Origin: a virus
Length of the DNA: 24,984 nucleotides
Reading direction: 5' to 3' (one strand)
IMG/VR virus record: IMGVR_UViG_3300023184_000490
Coordinates: 1-24,984 of that record
A program made the translations under genes and the position numbers. Shown here piece after piece: positions 2,588-24,177 of the stretch. Under the pieces are notes generated by a model. The model did not search any database, had not been told where the DNA came from, and worked only from the letters and a program-made list of their open reading frames with translations. The first letter of the stretch is position 1. Each line of letters starts with the position of its first letter.

Positions 2588-3529
2588 ATGATTGGAATTT
2601 ACAGAATAAAAAACTTGATTAATGGAAAATGTTATTACGGATCGTCTAAAAATATTGAAAAACGATGGAAAACACATTTGAATCAATTAAGGGATAAAAA
2701 ACATATAAATTGTATTTTACAAAGAGCGTGGAATAAATATGGTGAAGATAATTTTATTTTTGAAATCGTTGAGGAATGTGAATTTAAAAATATATTTGAG
2801 GTTGAACAAAAATATATAGATACTTGTGGTGATTACAATATAGGTTTAAAGGCTAGTGGGGGTGATAATTTAACTAAAAACCCAAATAGAGATAAAATTA
2901 TTGAAAACATAAAAAAAGGTAGTAAACTATGGAGAGATAGTTTGTCGGATGAAGAAAGAAAAGAAAGATTTTCAAAACCGTTAGACAAGAATCCAAACTG
3001 GAGAGGAGGTAGTACTTTTGTTTATTGTGAATGCGGAAAAAGAATAGGTTATAGTCATACTCATTGTAATCAATGTAGACCTAGAAGTGACAAAAATAAT
3101 CCTTTTTTTGGTAAAACACATTCAGAAAAAACAATAAAAATATTAAGAGAAAGAATGTTGGGTAATATTCCTATTAACAGGAAGGAGATAGTAATCAACA
3201 ATATTGATTATATAAGTTATAATGACGCTTCTGATAAATTAGGAATACCCATAACAACCATTAGGTGGAGAGTTTTAAGTAAAAACCCAAAATACAAAGA
3301 CTATTATTTCAAGGGAGAAATAAAAGTTTGTTTCAGTAATGAAGAACAAAATGAAAGATTCAGTAATCCACAAAAAAATAAAAAAAGAGATCATAATAAA
3401 TATTTTCTTATTGATGGTGTAGAATACCGAACATTAAAAGAGGCAAGTGAAATTTTGAATATTCATCCGATGACAATAAAAGGTAGATTAAAGTCACCAA
3501 AGTTTGACAATTACAAATACAAAGATTAA
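2588..3529 (+). CDS. Free-standing GIY-YIG homing endonuclease
   Basis: The N-terminal catalytic domain (about 1-95) has GIY at 3-5, YYG at 16-18 in place of YIG, the conserved Arg26 (EKRW) and Glu73 (EVEQKYID), then YNIG at 83-86. It is followed by a CxC-x10-CxxC zinc-binding candidate (C147, C149, C160, C163), a NUMOD3-type segment (NPFFGKTHSEKT, 171-182), and two related helix-turn-helix repeats of the NUMOD1/IENR1 type (about 199-241 and 270-312). This is the build of phage homing enzymes such as I-TevI: a small nuclease head on a long modular DNA-binding tail. It lies 59 bases downstream of an intact thyA, so it is free-standing rather than intronic. All expected catalytic residues are present, so it is probably active. 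Its cleavage site is likely in or near thyA of related phages. Confidence 0.93.
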   Translation: MIGIYRIKNLINGKCYYGSSKNIEKRWKTHLNQLRDKKHINCILQRAWNKYGEDNFIFEIVEECEFKNIFEVEQKYIDTCGDYNIGLKASGGDNLTKNPNRDKIIENIKKGSKLWRDSLSDEERKERFSKPLDKNPNWRGGSTFVYCECGKRIGYSHTHCNQCRPRSDKNNPFFGKTHSEKTIKILRERMLGNIPINRKEIVINNIDYISYNDASDKLGIPITTIRWRVLSKNPKYKDYYFKGEIKVCFSNEEQNERFSNPQKNKKRDHNKYFLIDGVEYRTLKEASEILNIHPMTIKGRLKSPKFDNYKYKD

Positions 3530-11038: not shown

Positions 11039-12532
11039 ATGAAAATAATAATAAGTGAAGAACAATTACATAGTTTAGTGAACCTTATCAAAGAAGATGA
11101 TGGTAAAATTAATGTTATGTTTGTTGGTGATAGTTTAAGTTCAGGTCCTGGTTATACTTGGAATTACCTTTTAGAAAATGCACATCCTGATTGGGATGTG
11201 ACTCATGTTGCAAAAGTAGGTATGAAAACATCTTGGATGTTAGATAATATGTTACCAAAGTTAAAGGAAAAAAAATACGATAAAGTATTTATATGGGGTG
11301 GTGGAAATGATGCGTTTGGACAGGTTTCTTTAGATAGTGTGGTATCAAATATACAAAGTATGGTTGATGCGGTTGTTAATCAGGGAGGACAAGCTTATGT
11401 GTTTATCGGGTACGATGCAAAATCAGTAATGTCCGATGATAAATTAAAACCAACTAAATATTGTGATAAACCATGTATGTTAAAAAGTCGTGATAGAACT
11501 ATTGAATTACAAGAAAAGGTTTTAAACGGTATTAAAAATGCGACTATAATACCTGCGGTTGTTGGAGATCCTAGCTGGACATCAGATGGTATTCACCCTA
11601 ACGGATCTGCACATAAGTTATTTAAAGATCAGGTTGAAAAGTACATTGGTACATCAACTAATAACAATAGAGGTACTAACACCGAAACCCAAAGTGCGGG
11701 ACAAAGACTTTTTAATTCTATTAAAACCATATTATCTAAAAAAGATAAAATGGAAAGTACTGCAACACCTGAAGACATTAAAACAATACAATTATCATTA
11801 AATGTTATTAATAAAGGTGATTTACCAATGACAGGTCAAATAAATGATGAAACCACTAAAACAATTGAAAACTATCAAGAAACAAATAATTTAGATAAAA
11901 CTGGTAAATTAAGTCCTGATACGACAGGTGGTATTATAAGTGATTTTTTATTTAAGATAACAGGTAAAAGATATACTTTTGGTAAAAGTGATAAGAATAC
12001 TAAAAACTTTAATCCAATGGTAATAGATAATCCAGGTATAGCAGTAAGGACTTTTCCATCCGACATTGAATCTAAGTTCAAAAATGCGGTTGGTGATAAT
12101 TATGATAGTTTTATTTCTGACGTTCAGGCGATTGGGTTAGATCCAAAAATTGCAATTAGACAATTATATACCGAATCTGCATTTAGTCCTGATGTTATGT
12201 CATGTAAAAGATCGTCAACTGCGGGAGCTAAAGGTATTGCACAGTTTATGCCAGGTACTTGGCCAACTTATGGTGGTGGTGGAAATCCTTGTAATATTAG
12301 TGACGCATTAAAGGCATATCCTAAGATGATGAAAGAATTGTTAAAAAAATTCCCAGGTAGATTGGACCTTTCAATTGCGGCTTATAATAGCGGACCTTAC
12401 GTACAAGTTCCAAAAAATTCAAAAAATTATGTTTACAATAATGCGTTAAAAAACAAAACACCTTTTACGGAACTTAAAGGTGTAATACCAGCTGAGTCTT
12501 ATAAATACGCATCATCTATACTCCAACCATAA
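11039..12532 (+). CDS. Tagged SGNH/GDSL esterase - PG-binding - lytic transglycosylase fusion
   Basis: Three enzymatic or binding modules follow a tag. Residues 1-20 (MKIIISEEQLHSLVNLIKED) end in I-K-E. Residues about 23-203 are an SGNH hydrolase: FVGDSLSSG with Ser32, IWGGGND with Asn90, and DGIHPN with Asp183 and His186. Residues about 244-302 look like a PG-binding type 1 domain (IKTIQLSLNVI...TGQINDETTKTIENYQ). Residues about 360-497 are an SLT-type lytic transglycosylase: IRQLYTES with catalytic Glu379, GIAQFMPGTW 399-408 and AAYNSGP 447-453. The combination should deacylate (for example, remove O-acetyl groups) and cut peptidoglycan, so it would help DNA entry or cell lysis. No signal peptide or holin is seen beside it, and the tag suggests virion delivery rather than secretion. 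Confidence 0.92.
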   Translation: MKIIISEEQLHSLVNLIKEDDGKINVMFVGDSLSSGPGYTWNYLLENAHPDWDVTHVAKVGMKTSWMLDNMLPKLKEKKYDKVFIWGGGNDAFGQVSLDSVVSNIQSMVDAVVNQGGQAYVFIGYDAKSVMSDDKLKPTKYCDKPCMLKSRDRTIELQEKVLNGIKNATIIPAVVGDPSWTSDGIHPNGSAHKLFKDQVEKYIGTSTNNNRGTNTETQSAGQRLFNSIKTILSKKDKMESTATPEDIKTIQLSLNVINKGDLPMTGQINDETTKTIENYQETNNLDKTGKLSPDTTGGIISDFLFKITGKRYTFGKSDKNTKNFNPMVIDNPGIAVRTFPSDIESKFKNAVGDNYDSFISDVQAIGLDPKIAIRQLYTESAFSPDVMSCKRSSTAGAKGIAQFMPGTWPTYGGGGNPCNISDALKAYPKMMKELLKKFPGRLDLSIAAYNSGPYVQVPKNSKNYVYNNALKNKTPFTELKGVIPAESYKYASSILQP

Positions 12533-14345: not shown

Positions 14346-14371
14346 ATAAAAGAACTATCAATATGCAAAGT
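14336..14371. repeat. Inverted repeat between divergent genes, possible operator
   Basis: Arms ACTTTGCA (14336-14343) and TGCAAAGT (14364-14371) are perfect 8-base complements separated by 20 bases. They flank the region between the minus-strand promoter and the 14403 start, so a dimeric regulator is conceivable. Confidence 0.4.
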
Positions 14372-14389
14372 GTTTTTTGTTTTAACTGG

Positions 14390-14396
14390 TATTTAT
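14390..14396 (+). promoter_or_regulatory. Putative phage promoter box (G)TATTTAT(C) (14403 gene)
   Basis: A diverged copy of the shared motif, with GG before TATTTAT and C instead of A/T after. It is 6 bases from the ATG at 14403 and is the reason for preferring that start to the one at 14370. Confidence 0.35.
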
Positions 14397-14402
14397 CATT
14401 AT

Positions 14403-15188
14403 ATGTCAGAGGAACACAAATTATCACCATTCTTTAAAAGAAGGATTGACCATCATAAGTTTGAAAAAATGATGAGGAAAGGTATTATCTATATGTATCA
14501 AGAATCAAATTCCCTTGAAGAATTTAAATTTAAGTTAGTTAAAGCAACATTAGAAAATTATATTTATTATAAATATAATATTGATATTGAGGAGTTACCT
14601 CATGATGATGTGGATAATTTTATTGATTATATGGTTGATACTTATGAACCCGTACTTAAGATGTATTATTATAATGAAAGAAAAAATAGTGGTAATATAA
14701 ATGAATCTAATGATGATAAGTTAAGTAAAGAAACAATGGTGGGTACATTTCAAGACATCGTTGAGGAAACGTTAAAAGAAATTAAACATAATTGTGACGA
14801 ATTGGATGCCGATTCTTTTGCAGCTTGGTTAAATTTTGATACCTGTGATGTTGTTGATAGTGTAGATAAAATAAGTATTATAAATATAGAAAGAAAAAAA
14901 GGTATAAGTAGAATTCCTATGTTTGAAGTTGATGTAAATATAACTTTTAATAGTGTATCCGCTTGGATTGATTATGATGATTTTATGTATACTATGGCAG
15001 ATAGAATAATTGGTAAATGGAAGATACGTTTTATTTTTAATATTAAAGAACAGGAGAATAGTAATAAACGAGAAATGTGGGAATACGCAAGGACATTAAA
15101 GAATGCAAGAACGCAGGGATCCAAATTAAGGTTTCCTAAGTCTGCAGTCAAAGCAAATCCTATGAGGTTTAGACCATACAATAGATGA
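14403..15188 (+). CDS. Two-module protein of unknown function, 261 aa
   Basis: Residues about 9-90 (FFKRRIDHHKFEKMM ... DVDNFIDYMVDTYEPVLKMYY) form an all-helical module also seen at the N-termini of 16977 and 22638 and the C-terminus of 22638. A polar linker holds NINESND (I-N-E-S, 99-102), which fits a prohead-protease site. The second part (about 110-235) has alternating strands and helices (FEVDVNITFNSVSAWIDY, KWKIRFIFNI). The C-terminal 35 residues are basic (ARTLKNARTQGSKLRF). The function is unknown. The ATG overlaps the 15185 start by 4 bases at the 3' end. Confidence 0.75.
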   Translation: MSEEHKLSPFFKRRIDHHKFEKMMRKGIIYMYQESNSLEEFKFKLVKATLENYIYYKYNIDIEELPHDDVDNFIDYMVDTYEPVLKMYYYNERKNSGNINESNDDKLSKETMVGTFQDIVEETLKEIKHNCDELDADSFAAWLNFDTCDVVDSVDKISIINIERKKGISRIPMFEVDVNITFNSVSAWIDYDDFMYTMADRIIGKWKIRFIFNIKEQENSNKREMWEYARTLKNARTQGSKLRFPKSAVKANPMRFRPYNR

Positions 15189-16976: not shown

Positions 16977-17669
16977 ATGAAAGAACGTTTTAATCCGTTT
17001 ATTATTAGGAGACTGAAACAAATTGATGATCTTGTTGATGAGGTTTACCATGAGGTAACACCTTGTGATTACGATGAAGATAAGTTTTATATGTACTTCA
17101 GGGAGATAACTAATTGGGTGGTAGAAAACTTTGTAAATAATAACAATTTAGAAGACGATGATATTGCGATTGATTTACATCATTTCATAAGAGAAAGATA
17201 TTTTGATGAGTTTTTAGATTACTTTGATAATGCACAATTAAGTTGTGATGAATTTATAAATGAATCTGAGGATTTAGGTGATTTTAATTATAATAATAAC
17301 GAAGAAAAGAAATTGGATAAAAAAAAAGTAACTCCTTCAGATTTAAAAAAGATTGAATTTATTGCCGATTATATTGAGATGGTAAGTGGTGAATATTTAA
17401 ATAGGTCAATTTATAAACCTTGTTTTGTTTCCGTTCAAGCGGGACATAATAAATTTTATATAGTTGTAATTGTTACTGATAAAAAATATACTTTGGAAGG
17501 ATACGAAAAATTCATTAATGAAAAATTACATAAAACATTCAAAGGGATGGACATTTATGTTTTATTAATTGATAATAAATATGACGATGGTGATAGTATT
17601 CCTAAAAGTTGTGATGATTATTTTAACCATATACCTAAACTTCCTAATACAATTACTATAGAATTTTAA
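16977..17669 (+). CDS. Two-module protein related to 14403 and 22638, 230 aa
   Basis: Residues about 5-88 (NPFIIRRLKQIDDLVDEVYHEVTPCDYDEDKFYMYF ... read as FIIRRLKQIDDLV at 8-20 and YFDEFLDYF at 75-83) are the all-helical module shared with 14403 and both ends of 22638. FINES (I-N-E-S, 94-97) marks the end of the module, as in 14403. After a polar linker, residues about 120-230 are an alpha/beta domain with strands CFVSVQAGHNKFYIVVIVT and MDIYVLLIDNKY. There is no tag at the N-terminus. The function is unknown. It is followed 3 bases later by a tagged gene. Confidence 0.75.
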   Translation: MKERFNPFIIRRLKQIDDLVDEVYHEVTPCDYDEDKFYMYFREITNWVVENFVNNNNLEDDDIAIDLHHFIRERYFDEFLDYFDNAQLSCDEFINESEDLGDFNYNNNEEKKLDKKKVTPSDLKKIEFIADYIEMVSGEYLNRSIYKPCFVSVQAGHNKFYIVVIVTDKKYTLEGYEKFINEKLHKTFKGMDIYVLLIDNKYDDGDSIPKSCDDYFNHIPKLPNTITIEF

Positions 17670-20657: not shown

Positions 20658-21503
20658 ATGAACTTACACGAAAATATACAAAGAATAAGATCAATGATGG
20701 GTCTCAGGGAAGAAACTGAGATAAAAGATATTGATATGGATATTTCTTACAAATACGATCCAAAAGTAATTGAAATTCAAAAAGAATTAACCAATAAAGG
20801 ATATTATATTGGAAAATTTGGTGACAGTAAAGATGGTATTGATGGAATATATGGCCCAATTACAAAGGCGGCACATGAATCTTACAAAAAAGAAATACCA
20901 CCAGAAGAGTTTGAATCAAAAAAAACTGAAATGGCTAAAGAGTATGTAGACGATGTGGATGTTAGTGATTTAAAAGAATTTAAATTTCATAAAATACCTG
21001 GAGGAACAAATAATTGGAGATCGGCTCAAATAACCGCAGATGTATTACCTTCAGTAATTAAAAAATATGGTATAAAAAATATTATCAGAATGAGTGGTGA
21101 TGACGAAAAACATAAAAGTGATCACCCTAAAACATCTTTAGATACTGAACAAAAAATATGTGAGGAAAATGATTGTACTTACCATTTTATTAATGCTCAT
21201 AGTGGATATAAATTAGGTAAAGGTTATACTAAATCAATACAAAAAATTAATGACATTTTAAATCAAGGTAATACATTAATTCACTGTGCTCACGGTGCTG
21301 ATAGAACTGGAGGAATGGTTGGTGCTTATCTTAAAAATAATGGTTATATGACAGATAAAGATGAATTATGGAAATATACCACACAATTTAATAGTTGGCA
21401 AAGCCTGATTAATAATAATAATTTTTTTGGAAGTGGTTACGACAAATATGCCGACGGATTTTACCCTATCTCAGAATTAAAAAATTCAAAATGGGTTAAA
21501 TAA
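20658..21503 (+). CDS. Tagged PG-binding / tyrosine-phosphatase-like protein
   Basis: The tag MNLHENIQRIRSMMGLREET (L-R-E/E) is followed at about 34-78 by a PG-binding type 1-like domain (IEIQKELTNKGYYIGKFG, GIDGIYGPITKAAHESY). Residues about 108-281 are a dual-specificity/tyrosine-phosphatase-like domain: NNWRSAQ (118-124), IKNIIRMSGDDE (139-150) and the signature HCAHGADRTGG (209-219) with catalytic Cys210 and Arg216, matching HCx5R. A phosphatase attached to a wall-binding domain is unusual. I infer that it is packaged and enters the host, where it might remove phosphate from proteins or act at the wall. The general acid is not obvious. Confidence 0.85.
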   Translation: MNLHENIQRIRSMMGLREETEIKDIDMDISYKYDPKVIEIQKELTNKGYYIGKFGDSKDGIDGIYGPITKAAHESYKKEIPPEEFESKKTEMAKEYVDDVDVSDLKEFKFHKIPGGTNNWRSAQITADVLPSVIKKYGIKNIIRMSGDDEKHKSDHPKTSLDTEQKICEENDCTYHFINAHSGYKLGKGYTKSIQKINDILNQGNTLIHCAHGADRTGGMVGAYLKNNGYMTDKDELWKYTTQFNSWQSLINNNNFFGSGYDKYADGFYPISELKNSKWVK

Positions 21504-21861: not shown

Positions 21862-22638
21862 ATGAACCTACAAGAAAACATACAAAGAATAAGACAAATG
21901 ATGATCTCTGAGGAGATGGTTCAATCAGATGCTTGGAAATCAATTAAACAAACTTTAGATATTCTTAAAAAGAAAAAGAAAGTTTTATTATTAAGTTGTT
22001 CCAATAGATATAATTTTGATGAAAAGAATATAGACATACCAAAGTCCAAGATGATTGCAATGTACTTGAACGATGAGTTGGGAGATAAGTCAGTATTAAT
22101 TGATGTCCCTGAACTTAAAATACTTCCTTGTGAAGGTAATGTATCAAGAAAAGATGGTAACTCTTGTGGGTTATTAAAAGCCGCTCTTAAAGATAAGAAA
22201 AAGAACCCATCAGGAGATCACAGATGTTGGGTTAACATCAACGAACCTTCAGATGAGTTGTGGAAGATATCAAAAGAGTTATTTGAGTCAGACGCAGTAA
22301 TATTCTTTAGTTCAATAAGATGGGGACAAACAAATATGTATTATCAAAATTTAATTGAAAGGTTAAATTGGTTGGAGAATAGACATACAACACTGGGTGA
22401 GTCTAACATTATCAAAGATATTGAAACAGGATTCATTTGTGTTGGTCAAAATTGGAATGGAGAAGTGGTAACCAAAACACAAAAAGAAGTACACGAATTC
22501 TACGGGTTCAAACCAAACGATAGTTTATATTGGAATTGGCAATACACCAAAGATGCGAATGATGAGACACAAAAATCATATAAAGCGTCACATAATAAAT
22601 TTATAAAGGACACTAAACTTCCTGAAATAGAAGAGTAA
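21862..22638 (+). CDS. Tagged flavodoxin-like (NADPH-dependent FMN reductase-type) protein
   Basis: The tag MNLQENIQRIRQMMISEEM ends in I-S-E/E and is almost the same as that of 20658. Residues about 40-200 fit the flavodoxin-like fold: KKVLLLSCSNRYNF (40-52, the phosphate-binding loop position), KMIAMYLNDELGDKSVLIDVPELKILPC, then ESDAVIFFSSIRWGQTNMYYQNLIERLNW (142-170), which holds the flavin-loop-like SSIRWGQ, and FICVGQNWNG (191-200). It may reduce FMN or quinones; the many Cys (90, 102, 122) are unusual. The tag implies packaging, for which redox defence of the host or the DNA would be a possible reason. The stop overlaps the next start in TAATG. Confidence 0.75.
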   Translation: MNLQENIQRIRQMMISEEMVQSDAWKSIKQTLDILKKKKKVLLLSCSNRYNFDEKNIDIPKSKMIAMYLNDELGDKSVLIDVPELKILPCEGNVSRKDGNSCGLLKAALKDKKKNPSGDHRCWVNINEPSDELWKISKELFESDAVIFFSSIRWGQTNMYYQNLIERLNWLENRHTTLGESNIIKDIETGFICVGQNWNGEVVTKTQKEVHEFYGFKPNDSLYWNWQYTKDANDETQKSYKASHNKFIKDTKLPEIEE

Positions 22639-23711
22639 TGAACTTACAAGAATCCATAAGAAGAATATTAAGGAAACCAGTTAATGAATCTACATATTTT
22701 CGTAGAAGAGTTGATATGAGTACAATAGATAAAAAATTCTTTACAAATTTAAATATTGTTACCGATAAATATTTAAGAAAACATAATAATGGACAATATT
22801 GTAGTTTTAATGTGTTTAGAACTACTGTTATATCATATCTTATTGATGATTATCGTGATAATTTATCTGATAATGATTATGATAATTTCCCATATGATGA
22901 GGTTTATAATTTTCTTTTAAATCATTTTTATGACAAGATTAAAGATAGATATAACATTATGTTTGGTGCTGACCTACAAGAATCCATAAGAAAAGTATTA
23001 AAAGAAGAATCAATACAAGATAGTTTGTATGATATGATTAATACTGATGGTATTGAACGTGCGGCAAAAACTGTGGGTGGTTTAACAAGGTTGGCAAAGA
23101 TATTAGAACTTGATCTTGACGACGTAGATACTCAAGAAATGTTAGTTAAAAATTTTATTTACCATACTAAATTTGATCAGATTGATGTGTTATTTATTGA
23201 GGTTAGATCATCTGCTAGTGGAGGTAAGATTCTTACCATTAATTTAAAAACTGATGATACTGCGTCAAATGTAACAAGTTGGTATGTGCATGAGATATGT
23301 AATTATCTTAATAAAAAATTATTTCCTTTTAAAGTACGACCATCGTGGCATCCTGTTTTCGGATTGAGTGGGTGTAAAATATTTTTAAATGCTGAGATAG
23401 TTGATGATGAAGAAAATGATGAGGAATTAATGGAATCTAAACAGAAAGGACCAAGAGAATTACCAAATGAATTAAAACGAAGATCGCAACGTTTAGATGA
23501 TCTAATTGTAAAGGTAATAAAAGATATTGAATTATGTCAGTATAATACACCTGATGAGTTTATTTATGTAGTTGTGGACGAACTTATATGGGAGTTAAGA
23601 GATGACTACCATGGTGATCTTAATAAGTTAGATAAATTTGATGTGACACAATATGTATATGACTTCAAATACCGTGAGTTAGAAGATTATTTTCTTGAGA
23701 GTTGTCAATAA
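22638..23711 (+). CDS. Polyprotein-like tagged protein with internal tag, 357 aa
   Basis: The order is tag (MNLQESIRRILRKPVNES, 1-18), helical module A (about 19-108: FRRRVDMSTIDKKFFTNLNI and later DEVYNFLLNHFYDKIKDRY), a second, internal tag (DLQESIRKVLKEES, 112-125), module B (about 128-260: DSLYDMINTDGIERAAKTVGG, LTRLAKILELD, strands), an L-M-E-S site (264-267), and module A again (about 272-357: ELKRRSQRLDDLIVKVIKDI). The two tags share 18 identical bases (TACAAGAATCCATAAGAA). Module A is shared with 14403 and 16977. Each junction has (L/V)-x-E followed by Ser or Glu, so a prohead-type protease could release three mature proteins. Function is unknown; fusion of two tagged genes is the simplest origin. 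Confidence 0.8.
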   Translation: MNLQESIRRILRKPVNESTYFRRRVDMSTIDKKFFTNLNIVTDKYLRKHNNGQYCSFNVFRTTVISYLIDDYRDNLSDNDYDNFPYDEVYNFLLNHFYDKIKDRYNIMFGADLQESIRKVLKEESIQDSLYDMINTDGIERAAKTVGGLTRLAKILELDLDDVDTQEMLVKNFIYHTKFDQIDVLFIEVRSSASGGKILTINLKTDDTASNVTSWYVHEICNYLNKKLFPFKVRPSWHPVFGLSGCKIFLNAEIVDDEENDEELMESKQKGPRELPNELKRRSQRLDDLIVKVIKDIELCQYNTPDEFIYVVVDELIWELRDDYHGDLNKLDKFDVTQYVYDFKYRELEDYFLESCQ

Positions 23712-23760: not shown

Positions 23761-24177
23761 ATGAAAATCATTATAACTGAAAACCAACAAGAATCTATAA
23801 AAATAGAACTTCAGAGTATGGTTAAAGATATTGGTTGGGAATTAACGGCAAAAATTGTTAATGGACCAAAAAAATTGGCAAAACTTGCATTTAACAATGG
23901 TCCGATGGAATTTTTAAATCTATTTAATGATTTAGATGTTGTTCAGAGTAAAAAAAACCCTGATTGTACATTATTTAAATATAAAAAAGGTAATAATGTA
24001 ATGGTTTTACTTGGTGGTAATGTTAACATTGATTATAATAAAATTTGGTCATTTTTAGGAGAAGGTTTTGGTCTTGACTTTTATGAAACAAAGAAACTTA
24101 CAGAGTTATGGTTATCTGATGCCTACAATTTAGAGGGAACAAGAACTAATTACTACGATTATTCCGTTCCTTTCTGA
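23761..24177 (+). CDS. Tag-like protein of unknown function, 138 aa
   Basis: The start MKIIITENQQESIKIELQSM resembles that of 11039 (MKIIISEEQLHSLVN) and 12532. Residues about 18-42 (LQSMVKDIGWELTAKIVNG, then PKKLAKLAFNN) match module B of 22638 and the 12532 protein. The C-terminal part has strands (DCTLFKYKKGNNVMVLLGGNVNI) and a helical, aromatic end. No catalytic motif is identifiable. It is followed by a 113-base gap without a plausible gene. Confidence 0.7.
   Translation: MKIIITENQQESIKIELQSMVKDIGWELTAKIVNGPKKLAKLAFNNGPMEFLNLFNDLDVVQSKKNPDCTLFKYKKGNNVMVLLGGNVNIDYNKIWSFLGEGFGLDFYETKKLTELWLSDAYNLEGTRTNYYDYSVPF

Follow-up and report, generated by a model that had tools for sequence, protein, structure and literature searches.

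Why would one phage gene encode the same short peptide tag twice, at the start of its protein and again in the middle? The gene that raises this question lies within 24,984 nucleotides of viral DNA (IMG/VR record IMGVR_UViG_3300023184_000490; here, the window) and encodes a 357-residue protein. An initial annotation had read this protein as separately packaged proteins that were fused and are later matured by the same protease, citing a tag at residue 1 and again at residues 112-125, an 18-base exact repeat between the two tag-coding segments, (L/V)-x-E-S sites at residues 15-18 and 264-267, and a module, A, that occurs before the internal tag and again at the C-terminus. All of these features are present in the sequence, and a profile HMM recovered both A modules (residues 18-105 and 275-357). 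The parts of the gene, its neighbors, and two further chains in the window are as follows (↓, predicted or known cleavage position; CTS, capsid-targeting sequence).

22638..23711, plus strand: open reading frame of the 357-residue protein, a putative three-module precursor (tag - A1 - internal tag - B - C - A3)
22638..22679, plus strand: N-terminal tag MNLQESIRRILRKP, residues 1-14, a putative CTS-like propeptide
22645..22662, plus strand: exact 18-bp repeat TACAAGAATCCATAAGAA, copy 1
22680..22691, plus strand: VNES, residues 15-18, predicted gp21-type site ahead of module A1
22689..22952, plus strand: module A copy 1, residues 18-105 (profile HMM, E 5e-23)
22959..22961, plus strand: Met108 codon, a possible internal start seven codons 5' of the internal tag core (a rival reading, discussed below)
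22971..23012, plus strand: internal tag DLQESIRKVLKEES, residues 112-125, with predicted sites LQE↓S and VLKE↓E
22975..22992, plus strand: exact 18-bp repeat TACAAGAATCCATAAGAA, copy 2
23016..23102, plus strand: module B, a short helical 'VGG' module, residues 127-155
23118..23411, plus strand: module C, a predicted alpha/beta domain, residues 161-258
23427..23438, plus strand: LMES, residues 264-267, predicted gp21-type site at the border between C and the last A module
23460..23708, plus strand: module A copy 2, residues 275-357 (profile HMM, E 4e-20)
21862..22638, plus strand: upstream tagged gene, MNLQENIQRIRQMMISEE..., overlapping the start codon of the 357-residue protein's gene as TAATG
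23761..24177, plus strand: downstream tagged gene, MKIIITENQQESIKIEL..., with a stand-alone B module
14370..15188, plus strand: second chain in the window, module A, then INES110, then a further module; the linker site is the same as elsewhere
16977..17669, plus strand: third chain in the window, module A, then INES94, then a further module

This modular anatomy is shown. Both A segments of the 357-residue protein were among the seeds of the module-A HMM, which also detects 127 A modules across 113 proteins; single-linkage clustering of segments lumped all modules together, and module HMMs were used instead. The two tags differ at their ends. Tag copy 1 has lost the E of the canonical LxE (ILRK, compared with ILSE in the closest relative, L001) and runs into VNE↓S, while the LxE end of the internal tag is intact (VLKE↓E). 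No Pfam or PHROG family was found for the protein, and neither a peptidase nor a recognized effector domain was detected. Fold searches with modules A and C gave no credible match (Foldseek best E 0.6; VIA Z <=6.1), and hits to ribosome recycling factor (Z 5-6) were set aside as reflecting only generic helical similarity. A tblastn search of 50,697 phage records returned no relative of the protein, nor did a bacterial and archaeal genome collection.

Elsewhere in the window, we observed a protein (11039-12532) that starts with MKIIISEEQL, a tag of another class, and has GDSL lipase, peptidoglycan-binding and SLT transglycosylase domains; it could be a head-packaged cell-wall enzyme. A tagged protein at 20664-21503 has peptidoglycan-binding and dual-specificity phosphatase domains. 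The C-terminal motif YARTLKNARxQGxGLRFPKSAxKANPxRFRPYNR is common to the second chain (14370-15188) and to a protein of a related contig (L002 6013-6885). Immediately after the thymidylate synthase gene (1419-2528) lies a GIY-YIG-like open reading frame (2588-3529), judged by eye only to be a possible homing endonuclease.

The tag itself is a short conserved N-terminal peptide common to otherwise unrelated proteins, several of them encoded in the window. In this it resembles the CTS of the T4 internal proteins IPI-III and Alt, where a short conserved N-terminal peptide on unrelated proteins ends in L/I-x-E. In T4, the protease gp21 cuts after L/I-X-E and so removes the CTS as an N-terminal propeptide (PMC9026906); a Glu-to-Asp change at P1 of the CTS is reported to block this cut. 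The propeptide of T4 gp24, MAKINELLRE↓S, closely resembles the tag. In the T4 literature that we searched, however, the CTS is a single N-terminal copy, whereas here there are also internal copies. Because of its second, internal tag at residues 112-125, the 357-residue protein can thus be classed with the CTS-tagged internal proteins of T4 only as a variant. We consider it likely that the chain enters the head as a precursor, from which a gp21-type protease releases A, B-C and A; packaging and cleavage are both inferred.

Internal tags are not peculiar to this gene. With a scoring matrix built from N-terminal tags, the internal tag of the 357-residue protein scores 29.4, and 15 internal matches scored >=20 among 2,014 non-redundant proteins, compared with 0.05 after shuffling. 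Overall, 3,052 non-redundant proteins contained 269 N-terminal and 49 internal tags (0.1 internal expected). A second set of loci was fetched by a scan for tag DNA and stood outside matrix building; many of its contigs are 100-320 kb. Proteins found only in this set contributed 152 N-terminal and 29 internal tags scoring >=16, with 0.0 internal expected. The L-x-E end was kept in 37 of 43 internal tags found by their first half and in 150 of 159 N-terminal tags, and tag-bearing relatives have up to three tags per chain. An assembly artifact was ruled out, since dozens of contigs, drawn from different samples, contain internal tags.

We identified the phage group through a glycosyltransferase gene of the window, which has a relative 92% identical at the protein level in a 291,867-bp contig, G004. 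This contig has a T4-type cluster of terminase, portal, gp21, a scaffold-position protein and gp23, with bS21 on the opposite strand; its gp21 matches PF03420 (E 5e-25) and the T4 gp21 structure 5jbl (E 2.6e-16), and its gp23 matches PF07068 (E 3e-73). By loose patterns, G004 contains ~37 tagged open reading frames, two adjoining gp23 and most in an island at 206-276 kb. The tags therefore belong to T4-like phages with a gp21 protease. Among 21 tag-bearing or related contigs, PF03420 was found in eight and PF07068 in nine; three short contigs of relatives, all fragments, lacked PF03420. The presence of gp21 and gp23 is shown for relatives only – neither they nor the head cluster are on the 25-kb window contig. 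G004 matches the bS21-encoding freshwater Bacteroidetes jumbo phages (PMC9723584) in having bS21 on the opposite strand inside its terminase-portal-gp21-gp23 cluster, and the host of this uncultured large-virus group is probably a member of the Bacteroidota.

Two further tag classes were observed in G004 (L149-L164), MKIIITESQ... and ...IIRLTESDLxxIVKRVINE; these likewise include [LI]TES and often end in [IL]xE. Separately, L166 13035-14117 corresponds to gene 199 of Flavobacterium phage immuto, which lies in the portal / gp21 interval and encodes HFIAE↓A as well as an internal tag-like sequence, LKEGFKKLIKKVLSEE. Between the Immuto phages and the window, shared DNA was detectable in thymidylate synthase only, and their gp23 is distant.

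The initial annotation had also anticipated that the parts of the protein might be separate genes in related phages, and this held when L001, L002 and L039 were compared. L001 is the closest relative (96-97% DNA identity with the window across shared parts), and there the parts are split between tag-A-tag-A (203-832) and tag-B-C-A (834-1577), two adjacent genes. Relative to L001, the window is missing 301 bp, with the gap exactly at the tag-coding sequence: the extra bases of L001 begin at the end of the internal tag and hold module A2, a stop, a start, and the second tag. The internal tag at 22971..23012 is the recombination joint in this comparison. Since 301 does not divide by three and each L001 gene is headed by a tag, recombination between tags explains the single frame of the window. 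Both the fused and the split form are shown, but there is no proof of which came first: one lineage may have fused the genes, or the other may have split them. That tag-B-C-A is also a separate gene in L002 (6013-6885) and L039 (889-1671) favors a fusion on the window's side, which would make this gene a recent example of such a chain.

Modules A, B, C and D also occur in genes of their own, and their order varies. Several groups of related chains are alike in the upstream module and the tag but unrelated in the downstream module (e.g., L227/L199, L203/L013, L019/L231, L002/L185, L024/L190, and L229/L206/L212), and the tag therefore also serves as a joint for module exchange. In two of these chains (L024 4036-4953 and L190 2928-3821), we noted a cyanophycin synthase-like N-terminal domain (PF18921; E 2e-44 in L024) as the module ahead of the internal tag.

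These comparisons leave room for a reading in which the chains are fusion relics. Here the tags would indeed direct packaging and their DNA would be especially prone to recombination, yet the internal copies would be neutral leftovers of fusion, any cutting of the chain incidental, and the polyprotein architecture without selection. The groups of chains that are alike up to the internal tag and unrelated beyond it speak for this reading, as does the location of the difference between the window and L001 exactly at the tag – tag-tag recombination alone would yield intact internal tags. Because recombination inside the tag is what distinguishes the fused form from the split one, an intact internal tag is by itself no proof of processing.

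The stronger argument for processing comes from junctions without a tag, which retain a bare site. Of 45 junctions that follow module A, 43 contain [ILVM]xE, whereas shuffled junctions predict 23.4 (p 2e-10), and 23 contain [ILVM]xE[SAG] (3.7 expected, p 1e-13). Control motifs, in which E was replaced by D, Q or K, or which were reversed or aromatic, showed no enrichment at the same junctions. This enrichment is shown, although the p-values are rough: redundancy was filtered at 60% only, and related phages were otherwise counted as independent. Depending on the relative, either a full tag or a bare INES follows the A1 module, the two being interchangeable at the same junctions, and some junctions have only a bare [IL]xE[SAG] site. 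Ahead of A1, [VLMI]NES is present in all nine aligned copies, although the sequence further upstream differs. Finally, [ILV]NE[SGA] occurs 26 times outside modules and never inside them (p 6e-5). A caveat is that L/I-x-E is short and common, and that [ILV]NES is somewhat enriched in untagged proteins too.

On this comparative evidence, the conserved element at the joint is the site rather than the tag, and it is mainly for this reason that processing is preferred over neutral fusion. The fusion-relic reading accounts neither for tagless junctions with a bare site, nor for the absence of [ILV]NE[SGA] inside modules, nor for the [VLMI]NES ahead of every aligned A1 copy, and we regard it as unlikely.

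The predicted maturation site of the major capsid protein offers a further comparison. T4 gp23 is cleaved after residue 65 (FLTE↓A), and at the aligned position six relatives have LINE↓A, LINE↓S or LLNE↓S. The predicted gp23 site (LINE↓A or LINE↓S) thus matches the linker motif [ILV]NES, being of the same tetrapeptide type. In a separate observation, a C-terminal motif, CWxGYxxKGMKxMFGKxxPNCVK, is present in 20 proteins (L007, L013, L019, L040, L044, L049, and others) and is often preceded by ELTE – possibly another gp21-type site.

Structure prediction had been proposed as a means of confirming three independent domains. The AlphaFold model of the 357-residue protein, built from 13 sequences, has a mean pLDDT of 69. 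Longer stretches with pLDDT <50 lie at residues 1-16, 112-124 and 256-276, cover the predicted cleavage sites, and are separated by better-ordered modules. In the model of a triple-tag chain (L002 8830-9852), pLDDT dips at 113-134 and 228-242, corresponding to its two internal tags, and the first module is poorly predicted too. The models agree with three units in the 357-residue protein. They do not prove flexible or disordered linkers, because low-confidence helices run straight across the internal tags in both – residues 86-136 in the 357-residue protein, crossing 112-125, and 202-240 in the triple-tag chain.

These continuous helices favor a second alternative, an intact multidomain packaged protein in which the first tag targets the chain, the chain is ejected whole, and the internal tag is a helical linker. 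The lack of a canonical LxE in tag copy 1 also favors it. Against this, the junction motif fits gp21 specificity, replacing E with D, Q or K leaves no signal, and the predicted major capsid protein site of the same phages is the same type of tetrapeptide. We consider an intact protein very unlikely.

A third alternative is internal initiation, whereby a start at Met108 would yield a second protein with the internal tag acting as its N-terminal tag. The window and L001 both have an ATG seven codons 5' of the internal tag core, in an A/T-rich context. As a general cause of internal tags, internal initiation was tested and not supported: an ATG lies <=12 codons upstream of 18 of 49 internal tags (37%, compared with 29% by chance), and many internal tags have no start codon there at all. 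This reading, too, has very little in its favor.

The precursor reading, which we prefer, would work as follows. The product of the gene, which would belong to a T4-like jumbo phage, would be a precursor that gives rise to several proteins packaged in the head and probably ejected. Its N-terminal tag would act like the T4 CTS and carry the whole chain into the prohead core, where a gp21-type prohead protease would cut after L/I/V-x-E at the tag, the internal tag, and the VNES and LMES linkers. The predicted products are A1 (about residues 18-111), B-C (about 125-266) and A3 (267-357). Fused and two-gene forms would arise by recombination between the tag-coding sequences of two adjacent tagged genes, an event that would keep the frame and leave a complete tag between modules. 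Repeatedly strung together, split, and exchanged at the same joints, the modules may form a shuffled set of cargo proteins. The original proposal of fused proteins matured by one protease is thereby supported by comparative evidence, with packaging and cleavage not shown. Packaging, cleavage and ejection are inferences by analogy with T4, any effector activity is likewise inferred, and we found no virion proteomics or cleavage assay for these uncultured phages.

Several known systems resemble parts of this arrangement. As in the T4 CTS system, a gp21-family protease and a gp23 capsid protein occur in the same phage group, though here in relatives only; unlike T4, there are bare sites between modules and ~37 tagged genes in one 292-kb relative (G004). 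Polyvalent proteins also combine several modules per polypeptide with predicted joint delivery, and have been likened to viral polyproteins (Iyer et al. 2017, PMC5512222). Their release is attributed to embedded peptidase domains (PMC5512222), whereas none was detected in the 357-residue chain, whose sites fit a separate prohead protease and whose module families differ. In head proteins of SPN3US and phiKZ, as proposed here, one substrate receives several prohead-protease cuts at a short motif ending in E (PMC5694885, PMC10052503). There, however, the extra cuts fragment a discarded propeptide, whereas here the segments between sites are folded-looking modules that are also separate genes. 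We found no mention of the tags or chains in the relevant sections of PMC9723584, and no description of tandem CTS chains in the literature searched, coverage of which was partial.

A bolder reading, towards which the evidence tips only slightly, is that injected proteins are organized as a cassette system in one clade of T4-like Bacteroidota jumbo phages. CTS-encoding DNA would double as a homologous-recombination joint, generating in-frame chains whose modules are separated by a packaging signal and a protease site. The head-maturation protease would serve as a polyprotein processor, so that arsenals of ejected proteins could be assembled, co-packaged by means of a single signal, and taken apart within the head. 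T4 itself injects a few head proteins, and some of these disarm the defenses of the host. If the present reading is true, it would provide a sequence rule for spotting ejected phage proteins in metagenomes, a natural case of a prohead protease serving the maturation of a cargo polyprotein, and ready-made module joints for loading foreign proteins into phage heads. It would also mean that widespread uncultured aquatic phages carry dozens of injected proteins – marked by a tag, strung into precursors, and reshuffled at that tag.
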